64,000 nucleotides of DNA. Source: Algoriphagus sp. (GTDB lineage: Bacteria; Bacteroidota; Bacteroidia; Cytophagales; Cyclobacteriaceae). Positions 1 through 4,668 of the stretch are shown here, piece after piece. A program made the translations under genes and the position numbers. The notes below the pieces were generated by a model. That model did not search any database and was not told where the DNA came from. It saw only the letters and a program-made list of their open reading frames with translations. Location: NCBI GenBank assembly GCA_030729785.1, contig JANQWS010000023.1:62001-126000 (forward strand). The letters are read 5' to 3'. Every line of letters starts with the position of its first letter. Position 1 is the stretch's first letter.

Positions 1-1463
1 GGAACAAGGGTACGCAGGCGCAATTGGCGGATTTTCGTACGCCAGAACTATTAGAAGCCGATTTAACCAGCCTTGTTCTAGACATGCATGTCTGGGGCAA
101 AAAGGATATCCGCAGCATGACCTGGCTCAATCCTCCGCCAGTAAATTCCCTGGTGTCGGCAGAAAAAGTGCTTGAAGCCATTGAGGCCCTCGACCAAGGT
201 CAATTAACTTCACATGGGAAAGAATTGCATCAGGTACCTGCACATCCGAGAATCGCGCATATGCTCGTCTATGCCAAAAAAGCAAACCTCCTGCCACTAG
301 CCACCGATATCGCCGCCATTCTGGAGGAAAAGGATCCGCTTGCTTCCCAAGCTGGTGTGGACCTTAATCTACGAATTGAAGGACTGAGACGCTTCCGAGG
401 TCAGGTAAATGGGGCATTTGCTTACAAAAAGATTGAAAAAGTGGCTGCTCAATACCGCAAATTACTTTCTGTTACTCCTGAAAATAGCCCCGTAGATCCT
501 TGGGCTACAGGATTATTACTTGCCTATGCCTATCCAGAGCGGATTGCGGCTGCAAGACCTGGGAACAATGCTCAGTTTCAACTTGCAAATGGAAAAATAG
601 CCCAAATCGGACATAAAGATGATCTTGCCTATGAATCCTGGTTGGCCGTAGCGCACTTGGATGGGCGCGATGGCATGGGCAAAATTTGGATGGCGGCACC
701 ATTAAATCCCAAGGATTTGGTACCCATGCTCAAAACCAAAGAGGTGCTAGAATGGGATCGAAAGAAAGGTGGACTTCAAGCACATGCTGAAATACGGATT
801 GGAGCAATCGTCCTGGGAAATAGACCGCTACCAAAGGTAAAACCAGAATTAGTTGTTCAACTACTTCTTAAAACCATTCAGGAAGAAGGGGAATTTTTGC
901 TGGACTGGAACGAGTCTGCAAGGGAATTAATAGCACGAGTGCAGTCAGTAGCGATTTGGCATCCGAATCAGGGCTGGCCTACCTGGTCGGAAGAGTCTCT
1001 CTGTGCAAGTGCTGCAGACTGGCTTACACCCTACTTGATGGGCATTACGAAAAATGAGGAATTGAAGAAATTGAATCTTAGTCAATACCTGTTGCATTCC
1101 CTCAAATTTGAGCAGCAGCAGAACTTGGAGAGGATTGCACCTAGGAATTTGAAGGTACCTTCTGGAAGTGAAATCTTGATCCACTACCAAGAAGATGGCA
1201 GTGCTCCTCGCCTCTCGGTTCGATTGCAAGAACTGTTTGGGCTGCTTGAAACCCCGAAAGTAAATGAAGGACGCGTCCCAATTTTGATCGAATTGCTCTC
1301 CCCTGGCTACAAACCAGTACAACTTACTCAAGATTTAAAAAGCTTCTGGAGTTTAGGCTACTTTGAAGTTAAAAAAGAGCTCAAACAGCGGTATCCCAAA
1401 CACTCCTGGCCAGATAATCCGATCCAGGCAACAGCTACAAGAGGAGTCAAAAAAAGAGAATAA
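1..1463 (+). CDS. hrpB: ATP-dependent helicase HrpB, C-terminal part (5' end outside window)
   Basis: This is the C-terminal half of a DEAH/DExH-type helicase. The reading frame is open to the left edge of the window, so the TTG given as start by the ORF track is not the true start. The visible part begins in the segment that follows the helicase C domain (TPELLEADLTSLVL). It continues through the HA2 region (LHQVPAHPRIAHML, about 80 residues in) and ends in the HrpB-specific C-terminal domain, with the family's typical ending RPVQ-like 'KPVQLTQDLKSFWSLGYFEVKK' region and 'RYPKHSWPDNP'. HrpB is an accessory superfamily 2 helicase of poorly defined RNA-related role. Walker motifs are not visible because they lie upstream. 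It converges on the next gene with a 7-base gap. Confidence 0.93.
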   Translation, partial: NKGTQAQLADFRTPELLEADLTSLVLDMHVWGKKDIRSMTWLNPPPVNSLVSAEKVLEAIEALDQGQLTSHGKELHQVPAHPRIAHMLVYAKKANLLPLATDIAAILEEKDPLASQAGVDLNLRIEGLRRFRGQVNGAFAYKKIEKVAAQYRKLLSVTPENSPVDPWATGLLLAYAYPERIAAARPGNNAQFQLANGKIAQIGHKDDLAYESWLAVAHLDGRDGMGKIWMAAPLNPKDLVPMLKTKEVLEWDRKKGGLQAHAEIRIGAIVLGNRPLPKVKPELVVQLLLKTIQEEGEFLLDWNESARELIARVQSVAIWHPNQGWPTWSEESLCASAADWLTPYLMGITKNEELKKLNLSQYLLHSLKFEQQQNLERIAPRNLKVPSGSEILIHYQEDGSAPRLSVRLQELFGLLETPKVNEGRVPILIELLSPGYKPVQLTQDLKSFWSLGYFEVKKELKQRYPKHSWPDNPIQATATRGVKKRE

Positions 1464-1470
1464 AGTTGAA

Positions 1471-1995
1471 TTACTCCTCAAAAAGATCTTTCAACTCTTT
1501 TAACATGGGTTCTACCTCTAGCTTCTTCAATGCTAGACTTTCCTCGTCCTCAGGATTGTGCAGGTAATGATTCCAATGCTTCTCGGCTTTGCGAATAGTT
1601 CTTGGAGTAACATCAAATTCCACACTATCCAAATACCCTTTAGCTAGTGTAGAAGCTTTAAAGTTGCCAAAAAGATACACTCGAAAGACATCCACAAAGC
1701 GTTCCGCTAGGTTAAACTCCTCTAAAATTTGCACGAAAGCCCCTTGTATAGCTCTATTCTTTTTATCTGATATGGCTTCAAATATGGCATCCAAAGATTC
1801 TTCATTCCAGGAAGTTTTGGCTAATGCGCGGCAAGCCAAATAAGCTATTTCCCACTGTTCTCCTTTTACCAAGGTAATCAAGTGGTCTTTGGTCTCTTCA
1901 TCAGCCATGCCTCCTAGTTTTTCTGCAAAGTGATAGGCTTCCTCTTCCTTAGGGTTGCACATCCGATTCAGCACTTTTTGTATGTCTTCCTGCAT
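1471..1995 (-). CDS. HEAT-repeat-like hypothetical protein
   Basis: Predicted soluble, acidic, all-helical protein of about 174 residues. I take the ATG at 1995 (MQEDIQKVLNRM) rather than the ORF-track start, because the longer form would overlap the divergent gene and adds a basic stretch without an obvious role. The body has repeated helix pairs of the HEAT/Armadillo kind (AYLACRALAKTSWNEESLDAIFEAI; AIQGAFVQILEEFNLAERF). These usually act as protein-binding scaffolds. No catalytic motif is seen. It is divergent from the probable release-factor gene at 2044, with only 48 bases between the two starts. A TATCTTTG box lies 20 bases upstream of this start. The function is unknown. Confidence 0.72.
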   Translation of the reverse strand: MQEDIQKVLNRMCNPKEEEAYHFAEKLGGMADEETKDHLITLVKGEQWEIAYLACRALAKTSWNEESLDAIFEAISDKKNRAIQGAFVQILEEFNLAERFVDVFRVYLFGNFKASTLAKGYLDSVEFDVTPRTIRKAEKHWNHYLHNPEDEESLALKKLEVEPMLKELKDLFEE

Positions 1996-2015: not shown

Positions 2016-2023
2016 CAAAGATA
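2016..2023 (-). promoter_or_regulatory. Probable -7 promoter box of the HEAT-like gene
   Basis: On the minus strand this reads TATCTTTG, an exact match to the Bacteroidota sigma-A -7 consensus TAnnTTTG. It lies 20 bases upstream of the ATG at 1995, so the implied leader is short. I see no clear -33 TTTG at the usual distance. Confidence 0.45.
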
Positions 2024-2043: not shown

Positions 2044-2742
2044 ATGAAAATACCACAAACTGAGGTCTTAGGTGATGAAAAGGCTCTTCAAGTATTAAAA
2101 ATAGCCAAATCAAAGGGATGGCAAATCCACTATATACCTGATAAGCATCAGGTACTGATCGAAAATAAAACAAGTTGGCTAGCCAAACTGTATTTACCAT
2201 GGACGAAAGTTTGGCTCCCTGAAGGTGAATTTTGCCTTGGCGACAATGTGCATTACTGTTTGACTTTGGTACGAGCAGGACAAGCTGCGGTGGGGTACTT
2301 CCATCAAGGAATTTTGCTTGACCATAAGGTTTTTCGCGGGTATTTAGTGCGACAGAAGCAAGGAATGTCTCAATTTAAATACTTGAAAACCAAAGGAAAA
2401 TCAAGAGCAGGTTCACGCATTAGATTAGAAGAAACACAGTTGTTTTTCAAAGAGATCAATGAGCGGTTACAAGTTTATGCAAATCAGTACCCGCTCAATT
2501 TTTGGGGCTTAGGATGCGCCAAAACGATGTGGCCCTTGTTATTTGATGCGGAGGTGAAACCACCCTTTTCTTCCAAATCCCATGAATTGATTGAACTCCC
2601 CTATCCATTTGTTAAAGCTTCCTTTGAAGAATTACAGAAGTTAGAACATCGCTTAACCCAATTCCATTTGCTTCTTTCTCCTTTAGGCAAGCCCTTATTT
2701 CAATTACATCACTCCCCAGATCTAGAGGAAGAATCTTGGTAG
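2044..2742 (+). CDS. Probable Vms1-like release factor (bacteroidetes VLRF1 type, peptidyl-tRNA hydrolase)
   Basis: Protein of 232 residues. I use the ATG at 2044 (MKIPQTEVLG); the ORF-track start lies inside the divergent neighbour. Residues about 93-145 read DHKVFRGYLVRQKQGMSQFK...KGKSRAG..IRLEETQLFFKEINERL. This follows the order of the eRF1-like VLRF1 domain of eukaryotic Vms1/ANKZF1: a 'K.F..Y.VR..rG..Q' segment, a Ser/Arg-rich turn, then a long helix. The GMSQ at 107-110 would be the G-x-x-Q loop whose Gln promotes peptidyl-tRNA cleavage. Family knowledge: Vms1/ANKZF1 frees nascent chains from stalled 60S subunits, and bacterial VLRF1 families have been predicted. That this protein acts in ribosome rescue is inference. 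No signal peptide or membrane segment is seen. Confidence 0.62.
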   Translation: MKIPQTEVLGDEKALQVLKIAKSKGWQIHYIPDKHQVLIENKTSWLAKLYLPWTKVWLPEGEFCLGDNVHYCLTLVRAGQAAVGYFHQGILLDHKVFRGYLVRQKQGMSQFKYLKTKGKSRAGSRIRLEETQLFFKEINERLQVYANQYPLNFWGLGCAKTMWPLLFDAEVKPPFSSKSHELIELPYPFVKASFEELQKLEHRLTQFHLLLSPLGKPLFQLHHSPDLEEESW

Positions 2743-2802: not shown

Positions 2803-3180
2803 TTAGCTTTCTTTGGGTCCTTTTTCTGGAAATGAGAGAGACAACATATTGATAGTCTCATGTGCCATCTTGATGTTGAATTCGTAGGCTAGACTCTTGT
2901 AATTCACTAAATCCACTATCGTACCAATAAAGCATAGACCAACAGTAAGTAAGTATAAGATCCCAAGGCCAATTTGCCCTAGGATAAATCGGTGAAGACC
3001 CGCGAAGCCAAAGAAGCCAAGTAAGGTCAAGATCAAAATCATCTGGGGGTCTTTCCGTCTTGCTCGGTATACTTGAGCAAATAAAGAAGCTTCTTCTTCA
3101 TCCATGCTCTTCATTAAACCTTGGATATAACCCAATTCCATTCCTTCCAATTCAGGAAGATGTCTCAATACATTAGCCAT
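2803..3180 (-). CDS. TM2 domain membrane protein
   Basis: Protein of 125 residues. A hydrophilic N-terminal part (1-42, with an acidic DEEE patch) is followed by the TM2 module. The first membrane segment is at about 47-63, then comes GLHRFILGQ, the typical polar turn, then a second membrane segment at about 73-92 ending in DLVN. TM2 proteins are small bacterial membrane proteins of unknown function; the turn resembles part of G-protein-coupled receptors. The ATG overlaps the 3' end of the upstream DUF2752 gene by 8 bases, so the two are translationally coupled and likely co-transcribed. Confidence 0.85.
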   Translation of the reverse strand: MANVLRHLPELEGMELGYIQGLMKSMDEEEASLFAQVYRARRKDPQMILILTLLGFFGFAGLHRFILGQIGLGILYLLTVGLCFIGTIVDLVNYKSLAYEFNIKMAHETINMLSLSFPEKGPKES

Positions 3181-3475
3181 AGTGTGTGCGATTTTTCAGT
3201 TGTTTGATTAATTTCCAAATACGATGAAAGATGACCCCGTATGCCAAACTTGCCAAAGGATGCATTTCCCAAGATGCTAGAAATTTGCCTCTAGCAAGCA
3301 AATTCATGGCCCTCCCCAGTCCACATCCAGGGCACCAGTGCAAGCCTAAATTATCCAAAAGACAAAGGCTGAAGGAGTCTGAATAGGGATTGATGGTAAA
3401 TATGGCAAGTATACTCACTATCCAGGCAATTAATTCCACTGGGAGGGTTTGTAGTCGATGCCCAAAATCTTTCAT
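3173..3475 (-). CDS. DUF2752 membrane protein
   Basis: Protein of 100 residues with the DUF2752 hallmark CPGCGLGRA at residues 48-56, a membrane segment before it (about 14-29), and a second hydrophobic stretch (about 72-88). The paired cysteines in CPGC may bind metal or form a disulfide; this is not known. In Bacteroidota DUF2752 genes often pair with TM2 genes, as here, where the downstream TM2 start overlaps this gene's end by 8 bases. Confidence 0.85.
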   Translation of the reverse strand: MKDFGHRLQTLPVELIAWIVSILAIFTINPYSDSFSLCLLDNLGLHWCPGCGLGRAMNLLARGKFLASWEMHPLASLAYGVIFHRIWKLIKQLKNRTHYG

Positions 3476-3585: not shown

Positions 3586-4668
3586 TTATGAACGTTTTAG
3601 TTCGGGGATCTTTAATTGAAGTACCTTTCCAAATTGCTGAATCTGTTGACGCTCTAAATTCTTTCTTAGCGATTCATGGTTAGTTACTGCTCCAAAAGTT
3701 TTGAAGCTGGAAAATTTTAAAAATAGTCCCAAAATATCTCCAGGAACCGGAGTTTGACCGGAAATACCCACTGCTTTCGATGCTTCTTTTCCAAGAAAAA
3801 ATGCCAGCATGGACTCGAGTTGTGAGGTCAGCAGTGAATCTTGAATATTTTTCTGATAGAATTCCAAAAGTGCTCTTGTGAGTTTCTTTCCTTCTTCTGA
3901 AGGTTTCATTTGCCTTCGGCGAATCAATCGATCCAATTCAAATGCTTCCTTAGCTGTAGTGGGCCAAAGATTAGTTTCAACCCCCATCAATTCACCAATC
4001 CACTTCCAATACCAAAGGAGGGCCTGGTGTTCTTTTGGCGTAGGTCCAAATCCAATTTTAGTCATCCCACGCAATACAATATGGCTAAAGGCCAGGTTGG
4101 TACCCAAAAGGTCTTCCTGGTTGATGGGTTCTCCGAATGCTGGATTCCAATCCTTGGCGTGCATTTGAATAAAATATCGACTGTAGGCATGAATCAACCG
4201 AACCCGCGCACATGTCAAAAAGGCTTCATCCTGCCTAGAAAAAGCCCCTGGTTTGAAGATATCCAAGACAAATCGGGTGGTCTCCCCTAGCCTTTCGCCA
4301 ATTTGGTTCAGAATCCGCTGAGAACGAACCAATACTTGGGCTCCATCTGCAAAAGCATAGCAATAGGGCAAAGAGTAAAAACCTAGCATGGCAAGGTATA
4401 AACCTCCATTGCGCTCAAAAAAAGCTTGGGCTTCTTCGTGTTTAGAAGCAGAAGATTCAGCTAACTTATTTTTATAAAAATCGAAATATTGTTTTAACTC
4501 CAACGGAAAATCATCTGGGAGAGAATCTGGAATGAATTTCCAGGAATTGATTTCTTTAGCGAAATTAGCATCAGAAACTAAAACCTGAACTGCTCGATCA
4601 GCTAAGGAATCTTTTTTGAATCGTAAACGATCAAAAACTTCATTGTTGTAGTCAGAAAGTAGTTTCAC
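3586..4668 (-). CDS. MpaB-like / latex-clearing-type oxygenase family protein (DUF2236)
   Basis: Protein of 360 residues without signal peptide. It matches the ER-bound oxygenase MpaB / rubber oxygenase (Lcp) family in pattern. There is a helical region with LGETTRFVLD (about 127-136), then CARVRLIHAYSRYF (about 153-166), which carries the conserved Arg/His seen in the b-type-haem oxygenases, then INQEDLLGTNLAFS (about 182-195). Known members are haem-dependent dioxygenases that cleave isoprenoid chains (Lcp, MpaB). Most bacterial DUF2236 proteins have unknown substrates. No partner gene is adjacent: the gene is divergent from the WD40-like gene at 4718, with 49 bases between. I cannot predict its substrate. 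Confidence 0.72.
   Translation of the reverse strand: MKLLSDYNNEVFDRLRFKKDSLADRAVQVLVSDANFAKEINSWKFIPDSLPDDFPLELKQYFDFYKNKLAESSASKHEEAQAFFERNGGLYLAMLGFYSLPYCYAFADGAQVLVRSQRILNQIGERLGETTRFVLDIFKPGAFSRQDEAFLTCARVRLIHAYSRYFIQMHAKDWNPAFGEPINQEDLLGTNLAFSHIVLRGMTKIGFGPTPKEHQALLWYWKWIGELMGVETNLWPTTAKEAFELDRLIRRRQMKPSEEGKKLTRALLEFYQKNIQDSLLTSQLESMLAFFLGKEASKAVGISGQTPVPGDILGLFLKFSSFKTFGAVTNHESLRKNLERQQIQQFGKVLQLKIPELKRS

Follow-up and report, generated by a model that had tools for sequence, protein, structure and literature searches.

Eukaryotic Vms1/ANKZF1, known from yeast and human, releases unfinished proteins from stuck ribosomes. It acts inside the Rqc2 (RqcH-type) pathway, at the step after Rqc2 tailing. 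Whether some bacteria carry a counterpart of this factor, and in which rescue route it would work, is the question raised by an open reading frame in the window, a 64,000-nucleotide stretch of a contig from an Algoriphagus sp. genome. A 2024 paper on bacterial RQC still states that bacteria have no known dedicated termination factor (PMC11317155). The bVLRF1 family was published in 2019 on computational grounds as a predicted release factor, occurring mainly in Bacteroidetes, with a G-x-tiny-Q loop and kinship to eukaryotic Vms1 (PMC6514570). We found no experimental work on bVLRF1 (activity, ribosome binding) in the literature searched, outside which most subscription journals lie, and PMC6514570 is the sole, computational paper that we found on the family, which the initial annotation of this locus had fairly called little-studied. 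The gene in the window is a further member of this already known family, and our analysis adds to PMC6514570 that RqcH accompanies bVLRF1 in most carriers and has probably been lost by some species of one genus.

A bVLRF1-family protein in a Cyclobacteriaceae genome

The open reading frame at 2044..2742 (+) starts with ATG and encodes a protein of 232 residues. The protein matches the Pfam family PF18826 (bVLRF1, "Bacteroidetes VLRF1 release factor") over residues 72-209 with an E-value of 2.2e-24 and a score of 86.5 bits, about three times the curated cut-off of 27 bits, and the match extends across the domain (profile positions 2-142 of 145). The acVLRF1 profile (PF18859), which belongs to the same VLRF-1 clade, yields a weak and partial match over 44 residues (E 0.083, 13.5 bits against a cut-off of 27.1). 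Pfam returned no domain besides bVLRF1 above cut-off for the 232-residue protein, and an NCBIfam search gave no match. Judged by its sequence, the product is a bVLRF1-family protein of a Cyclobacteriaceae (Algoriphagus-like) bacterium. It shares with the published family (bVLRF-1 in PMC6514570) the full-domain match, the GxuQ loop, the Bacteroidota host and the single-domain size; its loop reads GMSQ whereas GKSQ is the commonest form, and there is otherwise no difference that matters.

The catalytic domain (residues 72-209; 2257..2670, +) is predicted from the Pfam, PDB-profile and Foldseek comparisons to adopt an eRF1 middle-domain/RNase H-type fold. It is preceded by a poorly conserved N-terminal region (residues 1-71; 2044..2256, +), predicted to form a small alpha/beta segment (pLDDT about 80-90 for residues 10-60). 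Candidate CKS and LNS2 domains at residues 2-31 and 12-70 scored under their respective cut-offs and were rejected.

Homology to Vms1 and predicted fold

Searching the PDB with the single sequence ranked yeast Vms1 first, at an E-value of only 0.07. A profile of 50 relatives matched three distinct PDB sequences, all of them yeast Vms1, with E-values of 6e-11 to 7e-11 over about 130 residues. The profile alignment pairs H94, Y100, R103, G107, S109 and Q110 of the window protein with H279, Y285, R288, G292, S294 and Q295 of Vms1, respectively (Vms1 numbering per PMC5989216). Among these positions, the R288A and G292A/G293A substitutions abolish peptidyl-tRNA release by Vms1 and Q295L strongly impairs it (PMC5989216). 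The window protein thus has in common with eukaryotic Vms1/ANKZF1 (eVLRF-1) the catalytic domain and the residues aligned with Y285, R288, G292 and Q295, whereas at about 230 residues it is devoid of the zinc finger, ankyrin repeats, coiled coil and VIM (Cdc48-binding) of the eukaryotic proteins.

The AlphaFold2 model is mediocre (pLDDT 62, pTM 0.57, with values below 50 in the loop) because only ten sequences entered the input alignment, that of the window protein and those of nine close relatives. Foldseek comparison of this model (pLDDT 62) placed Vms1 entries at ranks 1-4. Balon and Pelota came next, aRF1 and the eRF1 middle domain ranked lower, the best E-value was 3.4e-3 and none fell below 0.001. 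This ranking agrees with an eRF1-like fold, short of proof; the sequence profile carries more weight.

Conservation of the catalytic loop

The segment H94-L128 (2323..2427, +) stands out by its invariance in 87 distinct relatives and by a strict signature recovered in 106 distinct members, and is predicted to comprise beta-strand 3, the catalytic loop G107-M-S-Q110 and then GKS-x2-GSR-x-RL. The motifs follow one another in the protein as H94...Y100LVR103QKQG107MSQ110...L114KTKG118KSRAGS124R125IRL128EE...FF.EINERL. The 87 relatives, gathered by class- and order-wide genome searches, have a median identity to the window protein of about 34%, and all of them keep Y100, R103, G107, Q110, L114, G118, K119, S120, S124, R125, R127 and L128. 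This set includes the arginines after the catalytic loop that are a feature of bVLRF1 (R125 and R127, 87 of 87). One relative (L011) has GKSRAASRIRL in place of the signature, and its reading frame is broken close to the N-terminus.

G107-M-S-Q110 has the fixed Gly, the tiny residue before the Gln and the fixed Gln by which GxuQ is defined. Across the 106 strict-signature members the loop is GKSQ in 76, GKAQ in 13 and GMSQ in 5, which makes M108 of the window protein a minority form. Where yeast GGSQ has its second Gly, the window protein has Met and the relatives usually have Lys, so that only the G and the Q of the loop are fixed. Compared with near relatives, dN/dS amounts to 0.07-0.19 over residues 1-220 and to 0.02-0.13 over residues 94-142, both for the pairs with estimable dS; in the most distant pairs dS is saturated. 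The gene is under purifying selection.

These data bear on most of what the initial annotation had claimed from the letters of the locus. Its assignment to the VLRF1 family (Vms1/ANKZF1-like) is borne out by PF18826 (2.2e-24) and the Vms1 profile match (6e-11), and the Pfam comparison that it called for separates bVLRF1 (86.5 bits, cut-off 27) from acVLRF1 (13.5 bits, under its cut-off of 27.1). The order of residues that it described is present in the open reading frame and lies far beyond chance (Pfam E 2.2e-24). GMSQ does occupy positions 107-110, and the catalytic Gln was correctly placed and numbered: Q110 (codon 2371..2373, +) aligns with Vms1 Q295, and this residue, whose loss among relatives had been named beforehand as the finding that would count against the assignment, is kept in 87 of the 87. 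The structure prediction that it proposed, subject to the mediocre quality of the model, gave no contrary fold, the top Foldseek matches being Vms1 and then other aeRF1-superfamily proteins.

Predicted reaction and substrate

The open reading frame, the Pfam assignment, the conservation, the profile match to the PDB and the Foldseek ranking together point to a Vms1-like release factor, and we consider it probable that bVLRF1 acts as a peptidyl-tRNA hydrolase on large subunits. This role, which the initial annotation had also predicted, is supported as a prediction by the homology to Vms1 and by the aligned catalytic residues. In a large subunit still carrying peptidyl-tRNA, bVLRF1 would reach the peptidyl-transferase centre, where Q110, within the flexible G107-M-S-Q110 loop, would position a water molecule for hydrolysis of the ester that links the nascent chain to the tRNA, while the invariant K119, R125 and R127 that follow the loop would hold 23S rRNA. 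It would do so without mRNA, probably after subunit splitting; the protein has no stop-codon-reading domain, which suggests mRNA-free action and a split 50S substrate. We infer from Vms1 which reaction takes place, that its substrate is the 50S subunit and in what order the steps follow, and the simplest placement of bVLRF1 would be the position of Vms1 itself, freeing chains from split 50S subunits.

Two other activities have to be weighed against hydrolysis of the peptidyl ester. Vms1/ANKZF1 is said to cleave the CCA end of the tRNA (PMC11317155), and the invariant basic residues near the loop of bVLRF1 could bind tRNA, as would befit an endonuclease cutting at the CCA end rather than at the ester. 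We regard such an activity as unlikely, given that the G-x-tiny-Q loop and R103 match the Vms1 residues needed for peptidyl-tRNA release in vitro (PMC5989216) and that the RNase reading was argued against in PMC6514570. The presence of Balon and Pelota among the Foldseek matches, after Vms1, could on the other hand suggest a non-catalytic A-site binder similar to Dom34 or to the hibernation factor Balon. Such a function appears very improbable: every one of the 87 relatives has Q110 and G107, whereas the Gln is usually missing from non-catalytic members (PMC6514570), and the flanking domains present in Balon and Pelota are absent from bVLRF1. The baeRF-1 proteins and Balon share the aeRF1-superfamily catalytic-domain fold with the window protein, but they usually have no catalytic Gln and often possess flanking domains.

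Rescue factors of the host and association with RqcH

The initial annotation also placed the hydrolase outside the ArfA, tmRNA and RqcH routes. Checked family by family, the host genome (84% complete) contains tmRNA, SmpB, RF1, RF2, ArfB (with SGGAGGQ and a basic tail), Pth and an NFACT/RqcH-type protein, so a placement outside those routes is not shown by the genome and this part of the annotation is unsupported. The RqcH-type protein has about 530 residues (L119:280-1863, contig C37). Its NFACT_N match begins only at residue 195 (profile 235-437); like its counterparts in most of the order's genomes, the protein has a divergent N-terminal part.

Genome searches recovered bVLRF1 in all 21 genomes of the genus. 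At family level 51 of 64 genomes carry it, at order level 103 of 322, and a class-wide search found it in 12 of 296 genomes; the window protein thereby shares the Bacteroidota distribution that is a trait of the family. NFACT_N (RqcH) is present in 97 of the 103 bVLRF1 genomes of the order, the within-order association being weak (p 0.038, with kinship ignored). At the class level, NFACT-R is found in 10 of 12 genomes with bVLRF1 versus 48 of 284 without it (Fisher 2e-6, inflated by shared descent), an association confounded by descent because bVLRF1 and RqcH are frequent in the same families. Within the family, RqcH is absent from 5 of 51 bVLRF1 carriers and from 0 of 13 non-carriers, and the f4 family has it in 9 of 10 genomes, too small a sample to bear on linkage. 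These counts neither prove nor exclude a link between bVLRF1 and RqcH.

Five genomes of one sister genus, all 99% complete (G283, G436, G504, G510 and G555), have no detectable NFACT_N or NFACT-R. The same five genomes keep bVLRF1 with an intact catalytic loop, and two further genomes of this genus have both NFACT domains. RqcH has therefore probably been lost in some species of the genus, apparently recently, and bVLRF1 cannot depend on RqcH everywhere. The sixth bVLRF1 carrier of the order without NFACT (G408) is too fragmented to weigh.

These five genomes, together with the patchy distribution of bVLRF1, are what would be expected of a stand-alone, RqcH-independent hydrolase rescuing stalled 70S or 50S particles under special conditions, as proposed by Burroughs and Aravind in 2019 and by the initial annotation; their paper (PMC6514570) regards the prokaryotic VLRF1 forms as stand-alone and RQC-independent. 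We see this as a possibility rather than the probable state of affairs, with RqcH present in 97 of 103 carriers of the order, non-stop rescue in the host already covered by tmRNA, SmpB and ArfB, and bVLRF1 having no stop-codon or decoding domain for entry into the 70S ribosome. More likely, in our view and with some confidence, bVLRF1 works on split 50S subunits and usually together with RqcH, though RqcH is not strictly needed.

As Vms1 works within the Rqc2 pathway, bVLRF1 may be the missing terminator of the RqcH route in these bacteria. Tentatively, we extend this to a scheme in which bVLRF1 could be the factor dedicated to chain termination in the RQC of some Bacteroidota, and the present-day equivalent of the donor from which eukaryotes received Vms1; RqcH and VLRF1 would form a pair like Rqc2 and Vms1, and in one genus bVLRF1 would have outlived RqcH and would act on untailed chains. 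Speaking against a release role of bVLRF1, RQC release in B. subtilis is carried out by Pth (Svetlov et al., as cited in PMC11317155), which this host also has. Pth is predicted to cleave the same bond but belongs to an unrelated family and is encoded by a separate pth gene in the host genome. bVLRF1 is an obvious candidate for a bacterial RQC termination factor in Cyclobacteriaceae, a role that, if true, would bear on the origin of eukaryotic Vms1, and related genomes that carry both genes, bVLRF1 alone or RqcH alone provide natural comparison sets.

Genomic neighbourhood

The closest named relatives of the window protein come from Algoriphagus/Cyclobacteriaceae MAGs, one of them at 94% identity. 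The gene is flanked by hrpB and a HEAT-repeat-like gene upstream and by a gene for a TM2 protein downstream, an arrangement held in the genus, partly in the family and not beyond. We considered a conserved operon partner and rejected it, as none recurs across families and the synteny with hrpB and the HEAT-like gene exists at the genus and family level only; the neighbourhood thus points to no functional partner.

The HEAT-repeat-like gene (1474..1995, -) is divergent from the bVLRF1 gene, with about 50 bp between them, and its product scores 27.1 bits, just under the cut-off of 27.7; it is kept in the genus and in much of the family and has no known link to rescue. A TAnnTTTG box lies upstream of it at 2016-2023 (-), and no such Bacteroidota -7 box was found upstream of the bVLRF1 gene on its own strand. 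Positions 24-1463 (+) encode the C-terminal part of the ATP-dependent helicase HrpB, a genus-conserved neighbour whose gene starts upstream of the window. Downstream, the genus-conserved segment at 2803-3475 (-) encodes, in tandem, a TM2-domain protein and a DUF2752-like protein, and 3586-4668 (-) encodes a protein with an MPAB/Lcp (rubber-oxygenase-type) catalytic domain (58 bits, cut-off 23).
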